64,000 nt of DNA. It comes from Sulfitobacter alexandrii (lineage in GTDB: Bacteria > Pseudomonadota > Alphaproteobacteria > Rhodobacterales > Rhodobacteraceae). Every line of letters begins with the position of its first letter. Position 1 is the stretch's first letter. The translations under genes and the position numbers were made by a program. This document shows positions 53,395-59,076 of this stretch, piece by piece. The DNA lies in contig NZ_CP018076.1 in assembly GCF_001886735.1 (NCBI RefSeq), positions 3,472,001 through 3,536,000 on the forward strand, read 5' to 3'. The notes under the pieces were generated by a model. That model did not search any database and was not told the DNA's origin. It saw only the letters and a program-made list of their open reading frames with translations.

Positions 53395-54015
53395 ATGACA
53401 CGCACACATCTTCCCGGCATCATTGCCATGGCCGCCATCGTCGTGGCCTCGAACATTCTCGTCCAGTTCCTGTTCGGCCAATGGCTGACCTGGGGCGCCT
53501 TCACCTATCCGCTGGCCTTTTTCGTTACCGACATCATGAACCGGGTCTACGGCGCCAGCGCCGCCCGTCGCGTGGTTATGGTAGGCTTTGTCGTCGGCCT
53601 GGCCTGCTCGCTCGTCGGGACACAGATCATGGGCGAATTCGGGCCGCTGGTCACACTGCGCGTTGCCATCGGCTCCGCCGTCGCGTTTCTGGCAGCGCAG
53701 ATGATTGATGTTTCGATCTTCGCGGCCCTGCGCGGCGGCACCTGGTGGCGGGCCCCGCTGGTCAGCACCCTGATCGGAAGCAGCATCGACACCGCGCTGT
53801 TCTTTACCATCGCCTTTTCGACCAGCCTCAGCTTCCTTCACCCGGCCACGAATGTGTCCTGGGCGTCGGAACCGCTTCCCCTGCTGGGCGCGGGGCCGGT
53901 CGTACCGCTCTGGGTGTCACTGGCAGTCGCGGATTGGGCGGTGAAACTGTCCATCGCGCTTGTCGCCCTGATCCCCTTCCGCATCGTCACGGCAAGGCTG
54001 ATGCGGTCGGCCTGA
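53395..54015 (+). CDS. yhhQ: Queuosine precursor transporter (YhhQ family)
   Basis: A 206-residue polytopic membrane protein of the VUT_1/YhhQ family, which imports preQ0 or preQ1 for queuosine synthesis. Family features are the ASNILVQF start, TWGAFTYPLAFFVTDIMNRVYGASAAR (read across helices 1 and 2), and the GSSIDTALFFTIAF segment in the last third. Six helices are visible. ATG 53395 has no strong ribosome site; a hairpin and A-rich tract lie upstream. Placed after the phytase-like gene with a 93-base gap. Confidence 0.9.
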   Translation: MTRTHLPGIIAMAAIVVASNILVQFLFGQWLTWGAFTYPLAFFVTDIMNRVYGASAARRVVMVGFVVGLACSLVGTQIMGEFGPLVTLRVAIGSAVAFLAAQMIDVSIFAALRGGTWWRAPLVSTLIGSSIDTALFFTIAFSTSLSFLHPATNVSWASEPLPLLGAGPVVPLWVSLAVADWAVKLSIALVALIPFRIVTARLMRSA

Positions 54016-54176
54016 CCCGGCGGCTTGAGGTAGGCCGTCCGAAAAACCCGGCGCGACGGCCCCCATGTATAAAAATGAAGCCCGTGTGGCGGGGCCGCGC
54101 GGGCGGATCACACGCTCCGCAAGAAATCGCTTTGCGTTTGCAGAAACCTGTGCAACCCTCAAGGTGAGTTCAACAA

Positions 54177-54191
54177 ATGAAAAGGAGGTGA
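54177..54191 (+). CDS. Possible 4-codon upstream ORF overlapping the super-Shine-Dalgarno
   Basis: ATG AAA AGG AGG TGA reads Met-Lys-Arg-Arg-stop and includes the whole AGGAGG core. Tandem AGG codons are rare codons and known to slow ribosomes in E. coli. Four codons can occur by chance, and no ribosome site is evident before it, so this is weakly supported. Confidence 0.2.
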   Translation: MKRR

Positions 54192-54196
54192 TCCAG
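54181..54196 (+). promoter_or_regulatory. Extended Shine-Dalgarno, 16-base complement of the 16S rRNA 3' end
   Basis: AAAGGAGGTGATCCAG is the exact complement of the conserved 16S tail CTGGATCACCTCCTTT, well beyond the usual 4-7 base match. Its AGGAGG core ends 7 bases before the GTG at 54196, the usual spacing. The last base is shared with that start codon. Confidence 0.8.
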
Positions 54197-54252
54197 TGTC
54201 AAGAAAGGTATTGGAGCGAGGTGTCGGAACAGCTCGGAGAACCTCCTGCTAG
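54196..54252 (+). CDS. 18-residue leader peptide
   Basis: Translation from GTG 54196 gives MSRKVLERGVGTARRTSC and a TAG stop. Codon use (AGA, AAG, GTA, TTG, CGA, AGA) is unlike the GC3-rich neighbouring genes and includes Arg codons that are rare in this genome type. The last codons overlap the first anti-Shine-Dalgarno tract (54242-54247), so a ribosome on the ORF would occupy it. No homolog is recognised. It could be a regulatory leader peptide or only the footprint of ribosome binding. Confidence 0.5.
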   Translation: MSRKVLERGVGTARRTSC

Positions 54253-54335
54253 GGCAGCCCCTGACAGAAGAGATTCCGAGTGGACTGATGGTCTAACCGA
54301 CCCACCTCCTCAATCCATTCGCCAAAGCTACGATT

Positions 54336-54363
54336 GGGCCGCTCCTGCCGGGGCGGCCCTTTT
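54336..54363 (+). terminator. Intrinsic terminator between the leader RNA and arfB
   Basis: GGGCCGC (54336-54342) pairs with GCGGCCC (54353-54359), extended by T-G and C-G pairs inside. TTTT follows at 54360-54363. It ends 40 bases before the arfB start, so it would be an attenuator unless arfB has its own promoter in the last 40 bases. Confidence 0.8.
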
Positions 54364-54403
54364 CGATGTTCAAATCCCGCCCGCCAGATGCGAGAATGCG
54401 AAA

Positions 54404-54826
54404 ATGCTCAGGATCACCGACAAGGTCGCCATTCAGGACTGGGAAATCACCGAAAGCTTCGTACGCTCCTCGGGGCCCGGCGGGCAGAACGTGAACAAGG
54501 TCGCCACCGCGGTCGAACTGAGGTTCGAGGCCGCGACGTCCCCGTCCCTCACCGGCCCCGTCAAGACACGCCTGCGTCGGCTGGCGGGCCGACGCTGGAC
54601 GAACGAAGGTGCCCTGATCCTGCAATGCGACGAAACCCGCAGCCAGGCGCGCAACCGCGACATCGCGCGGGACCGCCTGGCAGAGCTGATCAGGAAGGCT
54701 CTCACGCCTCCCAAGCGCCGGATCCCGACCCGCCCGACGCTGGGATCAAAGAAGCGGCGGCTGAAGTCAAAGAAGGTGCGAGGCGAGGTGAAAGCCCTGC
54801 GCGGGAAGGTCGATCCGAACGACTAA
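54404..54826 (+). CDS. arfB: Alternative ribosome-rescue factor ArfB (YaeJ)
   Basis: A 140-residue release-factor-like peptidyl-tRNA hydrolase that frees ribosomes stalled without a stop codon. The catalytic GGQ is at residues 26-28 (SSGPGGQNVNKVATAVELRF, the class I RF domain 3 pattern). The C-terminal basic tail (about 112-132, KKRRLKSKKVRGEVKALRGK) would sit in the empty mRNA channel. Normal family length from ATG 54404; a longer in-frame ATG at 54065 is rejected. The ribosome site is weak, and an attenuator-like leader precedes it, so tight control is likely. It converges with cobF by a 4-base overlap. Confidence 0.94.
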   Translation: MLRITDKVAIQDWEITESFVRSSGPGGQNVNKVATAVELRFEAATSPSLTGPVKTRLRRLAGRRWTNEGALILQCDETRSQARNRDIARDRLAELIRKALTPPKRRIPTRPTLGSKKRRLKSKKVRGEVKALRGKVDPND

Positions 54827-55572
54827 TGTCGGCGCAGGATGTAGATGTCCATGATCCATCCGTGCCGCTCTCGTGCTTCGGCCCGCATCCGCACGATCCG
54901 TTCAGACACGTCGGCCAACGGCCCCGCACACGTAATCTCCTCGGCCATGCCGACGTAAGCCCCCCACCAGATGTGCAGGCCGGCCGGATCAAGAGCTGTG
55001 AAGGCGCAATCGCCGTCCAGCATCACGGCGAGCGTGTCGACGCCAACGGGCCAGCCTTCGTTGCGCAACCTCCGCCCAGTCGTCACCAGAAAGGGTGCCC
55101 CGATTTCGTTGATCGGGATGGCATGGGTCGCCGTGAGCGCCTGAAGCGAGGTGATACCGGGGATTACCGCGACCCGCGGCGCGGGTCGCAACCGGGCGGC
55201 GATCCGCAGCGTGCTGTCATAGAGCGAAGGATCGCCCCAGACCAACAGCGCAATGCGGGAAGCCTCCGGGTATTCCGCCATTGCAGCTTTCCAGGCGCCC
55301 GCGATCTCGTCATGCCAGTCATCCACCCTCTGCCGGTAGTCCGCGGTGCGTTCGTCCCGCACCGGCAGATCGAATTCGACGATGCGCGTGCCCTTTCCTG
55401 TGAGCACCTCGTCGCAAATCGCGCGCCGCAACTCCGCCAGGTCGGCCTTTCCGGGCCCCTTCCTCGGGATCAGGATCATGTCCTGAGCATTCATCGCGCG
55501 GATGGCTTGCAGCGTCAGGTGCTCCGGGTTGCCGGTGCCGATGCCGATCAGGGTCAGGTCGATTGCACTCAT
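54823..55572 (-). CDS. cobF: Precorrin-6A synthase (deacetylating)
   Basis: A 249-residue SAM-dependent methyltransferase of the cobalamin pathway. It methylates C-1 of precorrin-5 with loss of acetate to give precorrin-6A. The N-terminal LTLIGIGTGNPEHLTLQA is the methylase nucleotide loop, and VWGDPSLYDSTLR and VIPGITSLQALTA are typical of the tetrapyrrole methylase fold. ATG 55572 overlaps the stop of the DUF1636 gene by 4 bases. This is the last gene of the minus-strand cob run. Aerobic (late cobalt insertion) pathway. Confidence 0.95.
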   Translation of the reverse strand: MSAIDLTLIGIGTGNPEHLTLQAIRAMNAQDMILIPRKGPGKADLAELRRAICDEVLTGKGTRIVEFDLPVRDERTADYRQRVDDWHDEIAGAWKAAMAEYPEASRIALLVWGDPSLYDSTLRIAARLRPAPRVAVIPGITSLQALTATHAIPINEIGAPFLVTTGRRLRNEGWPVGVDTLAVMLDGDCAFTALDPAGLHIWWGAYVGMAEEITCAGPLADVSERIVRMRAEARERHGWIMDIYILRRH

Positions 55573-55871
55573 CCCGGTATCCGCGCGATGGCTTTCATCC
55601 GCAGATCGCCCAGAACACGCGCGTCGGCAAACGTCCCGTCGGCGGAATCGGCGTATAGCGCGGCAAAGCGGCGAAGGTCGCCGATGTCTTCTGTCGTGAT
55701 ATCGCCGAACAGGTAGGCGACCTTGCCCGCGTCCCGGAAGGCGACGGTCTGCGGCCGGGTGCAGCCCGACATGCAATCGATCCGCCGCACGGTCTCGGAA
55801 GGCAGATCCCGTCGCACCGCCTCGAGCAGCGCAGGACCATCGGGGCATGATCCGCAGACGTACACCGTCAT
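55569..55871 (-). CDS. DUF1636 family protein in the cob cluster
   Basis: A 100-residue protein with Cys6, Cys9, Cys33 and Cys37 (VCGSC and DCMSGC). This CX2C-CX3C pattern is like thioredoxin-fold [2Fe-2S] ferredoxins. DUF1636 genes are often found in cobalamin clusters; the role is not known, and electron transfer to a cob enzyme such as CobG or a cobalt reductase is a reasonable inference. Coupled on both sides by 4-base overlaps to cobA (upstream) and cobF (downstream). ATG 55871 is the only suitable start. Confidence 0.85.
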   Translation of the reverse strand: MTVYVCGSCPDGPALLEAVRRDLPSETVRRIDCMSGCTRPQTVAFRDAGKVAYLFGDITTEDIGDLRRFAALYADSADGTFADARVLGDLRMKAIARIPG

Positions 55872-56596
55872 GTGCCCGGCTCCGCGAGTGCCCCGTAGAA
55901 GATCAGCGCCGGCGTCGTGCTGGTCGTCGTCTCGAGGTAGGTGGCAAGCGTGGACAGGGTGAACCACTGAACCTTCTCCGCAGGGGTCGAGACCGCTTCG
56001 GCCAGAAGCGCGGGGGTGTCCGGCGACATGCCATGTTCCAGCAGGCGCGTGGCGAGGCCGGGAAAGGTCCGCTTGCCCATGTAGATTACCGTCGTGGCGA
56101 GAGGATCGGCGAGAGCCGCCATGTTCACGTCCGCTGGAAGCTCACCCGTCACGTCCGCGCCGGTGATGAATTGAACGCGCCGCGCCGTCAGTCGCCGGGT
56201 CAGCGGAATGCCCGCGGCGGCGGCCGCAGCGGAGGCGGACGTGACGCCGGGAATGATCTCGAATGGGATGCCCGCGGCACGCAGGGCCGTGATCTCTTCC
56301 TCCAGTCGGCCAAACATGCCGCTGTCGCCGGATTTCAGCCGGACAACACGCATTCCCGCTGCCGCGTGATCGACCAAGACCCGGCTCACGTGATCCTGCT
56401 TGGGGGACGCGCGACCGGCGCGTTTTCCCACGCCGATCAAGTCGGCATCGGCATTTGCATGCTCAAGGATCGGGCCGGAGCTGAGGTCGTCGAACAGGAT
56501 CACTTCCGCCGTCCGAAGCCGGTCCACCGCCTTGACGGTCAGAAGCTCAGGATCACCGGGCCCGGACGACACGAAGGAAACGAAGCCGCTCATCAT
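55868..56596 (-). CDS. cobA: Uroporphyrinogen-III C-methyltransferase
   Basis: A 242-residue SUMT that uses two SAM to convert uroporphyrinogen III to precorrin-2, the branch point to cobalamin and siroheme. The SAM-binding start is FVSSGPGDPELLTVKAV. Family motifs are RLKSGDSGMFGR and EIIPGVTSASAAAAAAGIPLT, with the PLTRR Arg and the VIYMGKRT segment. The catalytic and binding residues look intact. It is coupled to DUF1636 by a 4-base overlap, and its ATG overlaps the cobB stop region. Confidence 0.95.
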   Translation of the reverse strand: MMSGFVSFVSSGPGDPELLTVKAVDRLRTAEVILFDDLSSGPILEHANADADLIGVGKRAGRASPKQDHVSRVLVDHAAAGMRVVRLKSGDSGMFGRLEEEITALRAAGIPFEIIPGVTSASAAAAAAGIPLTRRLTARRVQFITGADVTGELPADVNMAALADPLATTVIYMGKRTFPGLATRLLEHGMSPDTPALLAEAVSTPAEKVQWFTLSTLATYLETTTSTTPALIFYGALAEPGT

Positions 56597-57915
56597 CCAT
56601 CCCCGATCATGTGAAAGAACGTGCCGGTGGCAACGCCGCCCCCATCGAAACGGCGCACTGAACCGGTTTCGGGCACCTCCAGATCGTTGCTGTCGGTGAT
56701 CCGCGCCAGCGGTTCATCCGGTTCATCGAGAATGGTCGCATAATGGAACTCGTGGCCGCGCAGACGGCCCCGTATGGTTTGCCCGGGGATGGCGGCATTC
56801 AGATCCGCCTTGCGGTATCCCAGGTGCATCTTTCGCTTGGCAAAGGAGGTTTCAAGGCCCAGGAGCCCCGCCATTTCGTGCCGCGTGCCGTCCTTGTCCA
56901 CCAAGCCGGCGCCCATCGCCATGTACCCGCCACACTCTCCATGAACCGGGCGCGTCTTCGCGAACGACTGCAGGCTGTGACGGAACCGATCCGCCGCCGC
57001 CAGCGCGCCGGCATGCAGTTCGGGATAGCCTCCCGGCAACCAGCAGACATCGGCGTCCGGGTCCGGCCCCTCGTCCGCCAAGGGCGAGAACGGCACGACC
57101 TCGGCCCCGGCAGTACGCCACCCGGCGAGCAGATGCGGATAGACAAAGGCGAAGGCATTGTCCTGCGCCAGCGCGATCCGTTGGCCGGGCGGCTGGATGG
57201 CCGCAGGGGGCGGTGCGCTGTGAAGGGTTCCTGCCGCCGCCGCGCGCAACGCATCGAGGTCCACATGGCCCGCGATGAACTCCGCCGCTTCCGACAGGAT
57301 CTGCGGCAGATTTTCCTGCTCGCCCGCCTGCACGAGGCCAAGGTGACGCTCTGGCAACTCGATTCCGTTCTGCCTTGGCAGAGAGCCGAGCACCCTTATG
57401 CCGACCTCGTCCATGCCCGCGCGTACCAGCGTTTCGTGCCGGGGCGAGGCCACGCGGTTCAACACGACCCCGGCCAGTGACACGTCCGGGCGCATGTCGC
57501 GGAATCCCCGCGCGGTCGCGGCCACTGATTGCGCCGCGCCGGAAACGTCCAGCACCAGCACCACCGGCCAGCCCATGTGCGCCGCGATGTCGGCGCTCGC
57601 GCCGTTGCCGCAGGCGCCCGGAACCGCGACACCGTCGAACAGGCCCATCGATCCTTCGGCGAGGACCAGATCGGCACCACGCGCGTTGCCCACCAGACCG
57701 TCGATGACCGCGCGGTCCATTGACCAGCTGTCGAGATTGAAGGACGCCAGACCAGACGCGGCCGTATGGAACGCAGGATCAATATAGTCCGGGCCGCTCT
57801 TGAAGGGCTGCACGTTCACCCCCCGCGCGCGGAAGGCTGCCAGCAGCCCCAGCATCAGCGTCGTCTTGCCGGTACCCGACGACGGAGCGGATATCATCAG
57901 GCCGGGTGGAATCAT
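56593..57915 (-). CDS. cobB: Cobyrinate a,c-diamide synthase (hydrogenobyrinate type)
   Basis: A 440-residue ATP- and glutamine-dependent amidase acting on the a and c carboxylates of hydrogenobyrinic acid. The N-terminal dethiobiotin-synthetase-like P-loop is at residues 12-19 (SSGTGKTT). The C-terminal class I glutamine amidotransferase domain has Cys328 in [12 protein letters not shown] and His in [13 protein letters not shown] 57915 ([11 protein letters not shown]) is the start; the longer frame to 58146 is rejected. It overlaps cobM by 4 bases. Confidence 0.94.
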
Positions 57916-58697
57916 TCCGCCGTCTCCGGGAAACGGGGGTCCGTGCCCACTGGCCTGAAGCGACGATCGTAATCTTCCGCGTAGAGCCGGCTCTCTGCAA
58001 AATCCTCGGCCCCGATGGCATGGCCGACAAGGATGAGGGCAGTGCGCTCCATCTCTTCTCCGATGGCGGTCTGCAACGTGGCGAGTGTCGCCCGCACGAC
58101 CCGTTGATCCGGCCAGCTGGCGCGCCAGACGACAGCCACGGGGCAATCCGCGCCATAATGCGGCGTCAGCTCGGTCACGACCCGGTCCAGCACATGGACC
58201 GACAGGTGGATCGCGAGCGTCGCCCCGGTACGGGCAAAGTTTTCCAGTGTCTCTCCTTCGGGCATGGCCGTCGCGCGGCCGGAAGTGCGGGTCAGCACAA
58301 CCGATTGCACGACGCCCGGAAGGGTCAGTTCAGCGTTCAGCGCCGCGGCAGCGGCGGCAAAGGAAGGTACCCCCGGGGTCACGTCGTAGGGGATGTCCAG
58401 CGCGCGCAAACGGCGCAGCTGTTCCCCCATCGCCGACCAGACCGACAGGTCGCCGGAGTGCAGACGCGCCACATCGTGCCCTGCGGCATGAGCGCGGGCG
58501 ATTTCCTCCATGATGTCGTCCAACGACATCCGGGCGGTGTTGACGATACGCGCACCTTCGGGGCAATGGGCCAGCAGCGCTTCGGGCACCAGCGACCCCG
58601 CGTACAGGCATACCGGACACGCCGCGATCAGGTCGCGCCCCCGCAAGGTGATCAGGTCGGCGGCCCCCGGCCCTGCCCCGATGAAATGAACCGTCAT
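57912..58697 (-). CDS. cobM: Precorrin-4 C11-methyltransferase
   Basis: A 261-residue SAM-dependent enzyme that methylates C-11 of precorrin-4 to precorrin-5. The start [17 protein letters not shown] is the methylase loop. [17 protein letters not shown] and [20 protein letters not shown] are typical of CobM. Start ATG 58697 has GAGAGGA about 5 bases upstream; the frame extends to 58766 but without family similarity. It follows cobE by 10 bases and overlaps cobB. Confidence 0.95.
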
Positions 58698-58707
58698 GCT
58701 ATTCCTC

Positions 58708-59076
58708 TCAACTTTCCGCCAACGCAGCCGTGGCCATACCATCGCGTGACACGACACGCGGTGCAACCAGACGGGCCTGTGGACCGGCGGCGGCCAGCGC
58801 AGCCGCTTCTGCCAGAGACCCTGTGCCGAACCTGTCCTGTATCCGCTCTGACTGGGTGGGCGTTATCATCTGGCCCAGGTCTTCGACAGTCACCCCGAGG
58901 CCCGGCACGCCAAGAACCTGGGCGAACTCGCGAAAAACGGCCTCCCGAGCCTTGGCGGCTTCCGTTACCACCGCGTCGATCCGGACGTCATCTGACACGT
59001 CCAGCACCTGCTGCAGCGCATCCTGAAGGCTGGCCAGATCGGCCGCCGCGCGAAATCCGATACCCACGACCTTCAT
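58708..59076 (-). CDS. cobE: Cobalamin biosynthesis protein CobE (CbiG C-terminal type)
   Basis: A 122-residue protein matching the C-terminal domain of CbiG. The N-terminal [19 protein letters not shown] is the family start, and the C-terminal [21 protein letters not shown] is the other conserved part. CobE binds hydrogenobyrinic-type intermediates, and its exact step is still debated. ATG 59076 overlaps the cobL stop by 4 bases. Confidence 0.92.

Follow-up and report, generated by a model that had tools for sequence, protein, structure and literature searches.

A strong Shine-Dalgarno sequence and a mini-ORF lie upstream of arfB

On the plus strand of the window, by which we mean the whole 64-kb stretch of DNA analyzed here, an extended Shine-Dalgarno (SD) sequence, a mini-ORF, an anti-SD block and an intrinsic terminator precede a gene that we take to be arfB, a name adopted from the sequence-only reading together with the family motif (GGQ). 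The features are as follows.

54131–54156 (+): upstream block TTTGCG ... TGTGCAAC, a candidate promoter region of the RNA, kept in the 30-locus genus alignment
54171–54359 (+): the whole RNA as compared with Rfam family RF01867 (CC2171), a divergent match to model positions 1–159 of 159
54171–54176 (+): CAACAA leader box, 5' of the SD, recurring in relatives from other orders; the Rfam consensus begins cAAcaA
54181–54196 (+): extended SD, complement of the 16S 3' tail, with the core AAGGAGGTG as its most constant part
54192–54215 (+): predicted start-codon hairpin, arms 54192–54199 and 54208–54215, 98.0% of cells paired (n = 44), one-sided changes
54196–54252 (+): mini-ORF of 18 codons, GTG start, TAG stop, VSRKVLERGVGTARRTSC; its length, stops and starts were compared among relatives
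54220–54227 (+): GGUGUCGG in the ORF, predicted to pair with CCGAccC at 54297–54302, and with the anti-SD when the SD is covered
54247–54266 (+): predicted stop-codon hairpin, 88.2% of cells paired, 5 of 6 pairs changed on both sides
54297–54309 (+): cis anti-SD block CCGACCCACCTCC, of which CACCTCC (54303–54309) is predicted to pair with the SD core, one-sided changes
54336–54363 (+): intrinsic terminator, 10-bp stem plus TTTT, 8 of 10 pairs changed on both sides
54392–54397 (+): GAGAAT, a -10-like hexamer that precedes the arfB start by 6 nt and lies outside the RNA, a candidate leaderless arfB promoter
54404–54826 (+): neighbour gene, presumably arfB

The sequence-only reading had described AAAGGAGGTGATCCAG at 54181–54196 (plus strand) as an exact 16-base complement of the typical 16S rRNA 3' end, and comparison with the genome's own 16S genes verified both the match and its position: both genes end in ...GGCTGGATCACCTCCTTTCT, so that the 16-mer complements the tail of this organism's own 16S rRNA. 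Allowing up to one mismatch, the 16-mer occurs at 3 sites in the 4.69 Mb genome, all of them exact, namely this locus and the sites antisense to the two 16S genes; the 11-base core AGGAGGTGATC occurs at 15 sites, including the 2 antisense 16S copies. A 16S gene fragment was ruled out, the 16-mer alone being common to both and the ORF and terminator being non-ribosomal. The duplex between the SD and the 16S tail has a predicted energy of -28.4 kcal/mol, stronger than the threshold of -13 kcal/mol given in the accessible part of the work on Flavobacterium rpsU, with the reservation that the energy models may differ. A check of close homologs, which the sequence-only reading had proposed, found the SD core in 30 of 30 same-genus loci. 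No sigma-70-type promoter consensus was found in 53950–54450.

The element is widespread in Alphaproteobacteria and falls into types

With blastn, the segment was recovered from 35 of the 36 genomes of the genus, the window's own included, and the genus alignment comprises 30 loci. The expectation that the arrangement would be conserved in relatives was borne out for the super-SD, the mini-ORF, the 3' anti-SD and the terminator, with the SD/anti-SD pairing as the consensus fold of the lineage. Chance was ruled out by this same-genus conservation together with shuffles, and spread by plasmids was likewise ruled out, the plasmid collection being without a match; identity with tRNA or tmRNA was rejected.

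The exact pattern AAAGGAGGTGATCYAGTGTC occurs in at least 119 stretches of the GTDB contig collection, 80 of which were listed. Among the matches listed are Ruegeria (Rhodobacterales), Brevundimonas (Caulobacterales) and Falsiroseomonas (Acetobacterales), and also Bosea, Methylobacterium, Bradyrhizobium and Devosia, which we place in Hyphomicrobiales; GTG-TC and the SD are constant in these loci because the loci were picked by an exact 20-mer. Two gammaproteobacterial loci (L075, SAR92; L103, Cellvibrionales) carry the same 20-mer, followed about 30 nt on by a GGGAGCC..GGCTCCC hairpin and T's, and look like another short element. The exact pattern was found in 11 of 289 class genomes and, with 2 mismatches allowed, in 65 of 289, and the reversed-pattern control gave 0 matches among the genomes listed.

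The loci fall into type A, the window's kind, with 18 codons and the peptide MSRxxLERGVGT; type B, mostly with 20–26 codons and the opening MSHC...; type C, with 14 codons and the peptide MSxxKRCHLAGIAR; and a remainder of other kinds. By these comparisons, several orders of Alphaproteobacteria contain relatives of the RNA. What stays constant from type to type is the set of a strong SD, an NTG start, a short ORF and a terminator, which points to a translated, self-contained RNA. The motif CACCUCC is absent from the 3' part of the type B relatives looked at, so that anti-SD action in trans cannot be the common role of the family.

The RNA is a divergent match to the CC2171 family

No Rfam family reaches its gathering threshold anywhere in the 64-kb window. 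The RF01867 (CC2171) model matches the RNA with 34.1 bits, below the gathering cutoff of 75, with E-values of 1.3e-5 and 8.5e-6 here and of 2.9e-5 genome-wide, where it is the single match. The Rfam search that had been proposed thus returned an end-to-end match below cutoff, and the statement of the sequence-only reading that it knew of no description of such an arrangement has to be revised, since the RNA divergently matches a catalogued family.

The same model matches 31 of 144 Alphaproteobacteria genomes, 4 of them above cutoff, and Caulobacter vibrioides is the sole match among 14 control genomes. When 20 loci were scanned with all of Rfam, 19 matched RF01867 at E ≤0.01 and 6 passed its cutoff; the type B loci that pass have the layout of SD, start and terminator in common with type A, and their middle is unalignable. 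Six places were found by the model only, having been missed by the 2-mismatch pattern, and 5 of them have an SD core and a start, which L193 lacks. Three genomes (G047, G074, G194) contain two RF01867 matches each at E ≤0.001. The likeness of the window's RNA to the family consists in the consensus start cAAcaA..GAAAGGAGGUGAUCCAGUGUC, the full-length match and the terminator-like end, whereas the ORF and the middle of the RNA at 54171–54359 are wholly unlike type B. By these matches the RNA, of about 190 bases, appears to be a divergent relative of the catalogued small RNA CC2171.

The original Caulobacter paper for CC2171 is reportedly Landt 2008. Rfam types RF01867 as an sRNA gene, and the passages available on it mention neither an ORF nor 16S complementarity. 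In the published text available, CC2171 appears in the Rfam 15 table with one added covarying pair (PMC11701678), and MH_s33 of Mesorhizobium huakuii, 215 nt, is a CC2171 RNA detected by RNA-seq (PMC5596092). Literature searches by sequence, by peptides and by family name or number yielded nothing beyond the tables in these two papers, within the accessible text, and the accessible parts of PMC4117421, PMC5521070 and PMC5082802 contain nothing on CC2171.

The mini-ORF evolves as a reading frame

The mini-ORF, GTG TCA AGA ... TAG, lies where the sequence-only reading had placed it. Its 18-codon length is kept in 29 of 30 same-genus loci, the exception (L016) having lost the stop and running to 22 codons, and exactly 18 codons are present in 70 of 71 type A loci, which end in TAG (49), TAA (12) or TGA (10). 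The codon count covers these 71 loci with 68 distinct ORFs, duplicates L159 and L111 having been dropped. Several positions vary solely among synonymous codons in the 68 distinct ORFs; codons for Leu6 are TTG (56) and CTG (11), those for Arg8 AGA (32), CGA (27) and CGG (1), and those for Gly11 GGA (44), GGG (21) and GGT (1). Ser2 is encoded by TCN in all 68, TC being part of the search pattern for most of them, and by TCA (28) or TCT (2) in the genus set of 30 blastn loci.

Start codons in the class-wide 2-mismatch scan are ATG (32), GTG (27) and TTG (7) at 66 sites, which include two, L168 and L179, that are perhaps ordinary genes fitting the pattern by chance. In 39 of the 66 the first base of the start codon differs, being A or T without exception, and the T and G after it are invariant. 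Type B loci contain a TGG codon that shifts by whole codons and is in frame in 56 of the 63 loci with the motif. The NTG starts, the three stops, the synonymous codons and the fixed length are marks of frame-level selection on the ORF, and this selection on frame and stop, together with the varied valid start codons, points to real translation.

The sequence-only reading had also called the ORF rich in uncommon Arg codons, and this holds: its Arg codons are AGA, CGA, CGG and AGA, and AGA makes up 3 and CGA 10 of the 146 Arg codons in seven window genes. Arg3 is AGA in 64 of 64 type A ORFs, and 59 of 60 have AGA or CGA at Arg8; pairing or loop needs may be behind the kept rare codons AGA and CGA.

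Frame-level selection is also what speaks for a micropeptide gene, that is, a short mRNA whose SD is very strong, whose product is the peptide and whose structures stabilize the mRNA or tune synthesis, as do the near-constancy of residues 6–12 (LERGVGT) in the 68 distinct type A ORFs and the MSHC start and in-frame Trp of many type B loci. However, the peptides are wholly different between orders, codons 13–18 are free to vary, and the constant residues overlap paired RNA segments, RNA pairing being a possible source of part of the type A codon pattern. Third positions show no excess of diversity (0.243 vs 0.300 and 0.245 at the other two in type A), so that the peptide itself need not be selected. 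We consider a micropeptide gene rather unlikely.

The SD is predicted to be closed in cis in type A

The RNA at 54160–54363 is more stable than its shuffles (z = -3.96, with 0 of 200 equally stable). In the computed fold of the window RNA, the 3' CACCTCC takes up the SD core, and a hairpin encloses the start codon; opening the SD would cost 7.0 kcal/mol, and the best cis duplex is computed at -15.1 kcal/mol. The type A fold, a consensus of 44 of the type A sequences, has 95.7% of its cells paired, as against at most 55.4% when slid, the fold having been derived from the same alignment, which favours it. Across the 44 sequences, paired cells amount to 97.7% for the SD core (GGAGGUG/CACCUCC), 97.0% for GG..UCGG of the ORF with CCGA..CC, and 96.4% for the terminator.

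Several structural claims of the sequence-only reading could be followed through these alignments. The GC-rich hairpin with TTTT ending at 54363 was confirmed as a terminator with a covarying stem, present in 30 of 30 genus loci and one of two terminator-like sites in 501 bases, where 0.6 were expected; the simple terminator rule called none for 36 loci. Covariation, proposed for both the terminator and the SD/anti-SD stems, was found as changes on both sides in the former, while the latter is conserved with one-sided changes only, as is the start helix, because the SD is invariant. In the start hairpin, a C to T change in the SD accompanies a T to C change in Leu6 in 10 of 10 loci, vs 1 of 60 without, a linkage behind which few events may lie because the loci are related. 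Two tracts had been named as able to pair with the SD. The 3' one, CACCTCC at 54303–54309, is conserved, with CCTCC kept in 29 of 30 genus loci and with CATCTCC or CGCCTCC also occurring in the wider group; the first, CCTCCT at 54242–54247, is present in 2 of 30 same-genus loci and is therefore incidental. Folding with the SD covered produced, on paper, an alternative fold, as had been envisaged, the 3' CACCUC re-pairing with GAGGUG inside the ORF, but not a switch between terminator and antiterminator: the terminator stem persisted in both states folded, SD free and SD covered, and no antiterminator was seen in either.

Pairing of the SD with the rest of its own RNA reached z < -2 in 52 of 69 type A loci and in 8 of 68 downstream controls. 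With a 12-base SD, the same threshold was passed by 11 of 76 type B loci (controls 3/72), 4 of 12 type C loci (controls 1/12) and 1 of 15 loci of the remaining types (controls 2/15), and with a 15-base SD by 18 of 36 type B loci under mononucleotide shuffles; the groups compared with controls exclude L145, L168, L179, L184, L075, L162 and L103. By this measure, cis shutting of the SD is clear in type A alone, weak in type B, equivocal in type C and absent for the remaining types. The type B fold, from an alignment of 36 of the 79 type B loci, has 91.7% of cells paired vs 54.8% when slid. It includes a long-range helix (CAUUGUC/GACAAUG plus CCGCGG/CCGCGG) that would join the early ORF to the pre-terminator segment in the 36 sequences and in which 8 of 13 pairs are changed on both sides, the helix having been read by eye from single folds and then counted, hence chosen after the data were seen; RNAalifold on type B returned just a spurious small hairpin and the terminator. 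Within type B, pairing is also possible between GAUCCAG of the SD and CUGGAUC of the ORF (88.1%, one-sided changes).

A 30S decoy would account for a 16-nt complement of the whole tail, at -28.4 kcal/mol, and for an SD core that is the most constant part: the RNA would tie up the 16S tail and lower SD-dependent initiation, and translation of the ORF would be a by-product or serve subunit release. Yet frame and stop selection and the varied valid starts point to real translation, and an SD paired in cis, as in type A, is odd for a decoy. We regard a decoy as quite unlikely.

Neighbouring genes differ between types

Neighbours were counted for 69 type A loci, after duplicates L159, L160 and L090 (and L111) had been dropped. 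Downstream, arfB lies within 335 nt in 54 of the 69 and further off (>600 nt) in 9, and was not found in 6 (L067 offers just 241 nt); in some loci a gene is inserted between the element and arfB, and the element is still intact. Upstream, a yhhQ-like gene lies within 230 nt in 66 of the 69. Among the 112 loci of other types, arfB was found downstream in 0. For 105 loci classed as non-A, a count that includes the type A locus L028, a simple rule placed the nearest downstream gene on the plus strand in 58 and on the minus strand in 47, and no family is shared among 103 proteins flanking type B and other loci, the commonest being DUF188 (5) and RF3 (3). There is thus no fixed neighbour across orders. 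Cis control as the general role of the family was rejected because the neighbours differ.

Before arfB itself, 17 of 63 loci have a -10-like hexamer, against an expectation of 5.4, and no more than 13 of the 63 have an SD-like word, so that arfB resembles a leaderless mRNA under a promoter of its own. The gap between the terminator stem and arfB has a median of 52 nt and a minimum of 14 in 49 loci. Where it measures 14–34 nt, there is little room for a whole arfB promoter, the -35 of which would lie in the terminator, a point in favour of coupling, and a gap down to 14 nt would permit read-through into arfB.

These data bear on the proposal, made in the sequence-only reading, that ribosomes on the leader tie arfB output to ribosome state. 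The distance was right, arfB starting at 54404, 40 bases after 54363, and proximity in type A weakly suggests control by the RNA; the element recurs in the other types with no arfB downstream, and arfB looks to have a -10 of its own. As a leader-peptide attenuator of arfB in Rhodobacterales, in which ribosomes on the ORF would choose between terminator and antiterminator, the RNA would draw on arfB lying within 335 nt in those 54 loci, on the shortest gaps and on the alternative fold with the SD covered. Nevertheless, both computed folds keep the terminator stem and show no antiterminator, arfB looks leaderless, it is distant or was not found in 9 and 6 type A loci, respectively, and in other orders the nearest downstream gene lies on either strand. 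An attenuator is therefore, in our estimation, very improbable.

Some neighbourhoods show features of their own. In five loci (L077, L092, L099, L112, L137), a release-factor-3-like gene (prfC) adjoins the element on the other strand, with RF3_C in 3 of the members scanned, and in four (L039, L040, L057, L093) there is a downstream RNase R-like gene in the same orientation, with an RNB domain in L039. At L184, in another lineage, an arfB homologue lies 85 bp upstream of a possible element, on the other strand, and the contig ends 63 nt later. In the window, the minus strand of 54823–58766 contains open frames resembling cobalamin-biosynthesis genes, presumably precorrin methyltransferase-like and cobyrinate synthase-like.

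A putatively translated RNA that may respond to 30S subunits

The pattern of change suggests a translated RNA that forms a separate gene rather than a switch for arfB. We give about an even chance to a standalone translated minigene, or dual-function sRNA, whose translation hinges on competition between the 30S tail and cis structure. The segment would yield a separate transcript that stops at its own terminator and gives rise to a short peptide, with the SD able to pair with the whole single-stranded 16S 3' tail. In type A, the finished RNA would shut itself, the SD core being paired with CACCUCC and the start codon held in a hairpin; since what shuts the SD is a copy of the 16S tail, the SD would be the point of competition between ribosome and RNA, and a 30S subunit would have to win it from the cis copy. 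Once it did, the cis copy would re-pair with the ORF or go free, and mini-ORF translation, the shape of the RNA and probably its lifetime would vary with the number of 30S subunits whose tail is free. The likely actor would be the RNA itself rather than arfB in cis, and the freed CCACCUCC could, as a guess, act against the SDs of other mRNAs in the type A lineage alone.

Known systems offer partial parallels. The CcsR/Cuckoo RNAs of Rhodobacter, which are tandem RNAs following a DUF1127 gene and have CCUCCUCCC in their loops, are like the present RNA in having a CCUCC-type anti-SD motif in an alphaproteobacterial small RNA, but here there is one copy, paired with the RNA's own SD; an unpaired CCUCC loop motif, as in those RNAs, was not found, CACCUCC being paired with the SD core in the consensus fold. 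With leader-peptide attenuators such as trpL/rnTrpL (peTrpL; PMC7298713), likeness extends to a short ORF, alternative folds, a terminator and a possible trans-acting terminated RNA, whereas the present element has no regulatory codon run, no fixed downstream operon across orders and no antiterminator that we could see. Extended SD pairing and unannotated small ORFs are described, in the part of the report available, for Staphylococcus aureus (PMC13009471), which belongs to another phylum; the likeness is one of description, with no sequence relation claimed. The extended SD of rpsU in Flavobacterium is the closest working analogue: according to the accessible part of that study, bS21 autoregulates its synthesis there, ribosomes lacking bS21 reading rpsU (PMC9976891). 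An exceptionally strong SD and translation dependent on the state of the 16S tail would be common to both, a likeness in working only, but rpsU is a ribosomal protein gene, while here there are a mini-ORF, a short terminated RNA and a cis anti-SD.

A wider version of the competition model, in which the RNA would be a class-wide ribosome-state sensor, setting the free tail of the 30S against the RNA's own tail copy, with the freed anti-SD acting on other Rhodobacterales mRNAs, seems to us doubtful. If it were true, translation of the mini-ORF would report free, mature 30S subunits, and CC2171, at present catalogued as a small RNA, would turn out to be a ribosome gauge that is translated. Many alphaproteobacterial mRNAs have a weak SD or none, so that a conserved RNA with an SD covering the whole 16S tail is unexpected. 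The RNA may offer a direct handle on how Alphaproteobacteria sense or allot 30S subunits, and through it a catalogued family with no known function would become a translated gene open to testing. It occurs in Caulobacter and in a genus whose species are named.
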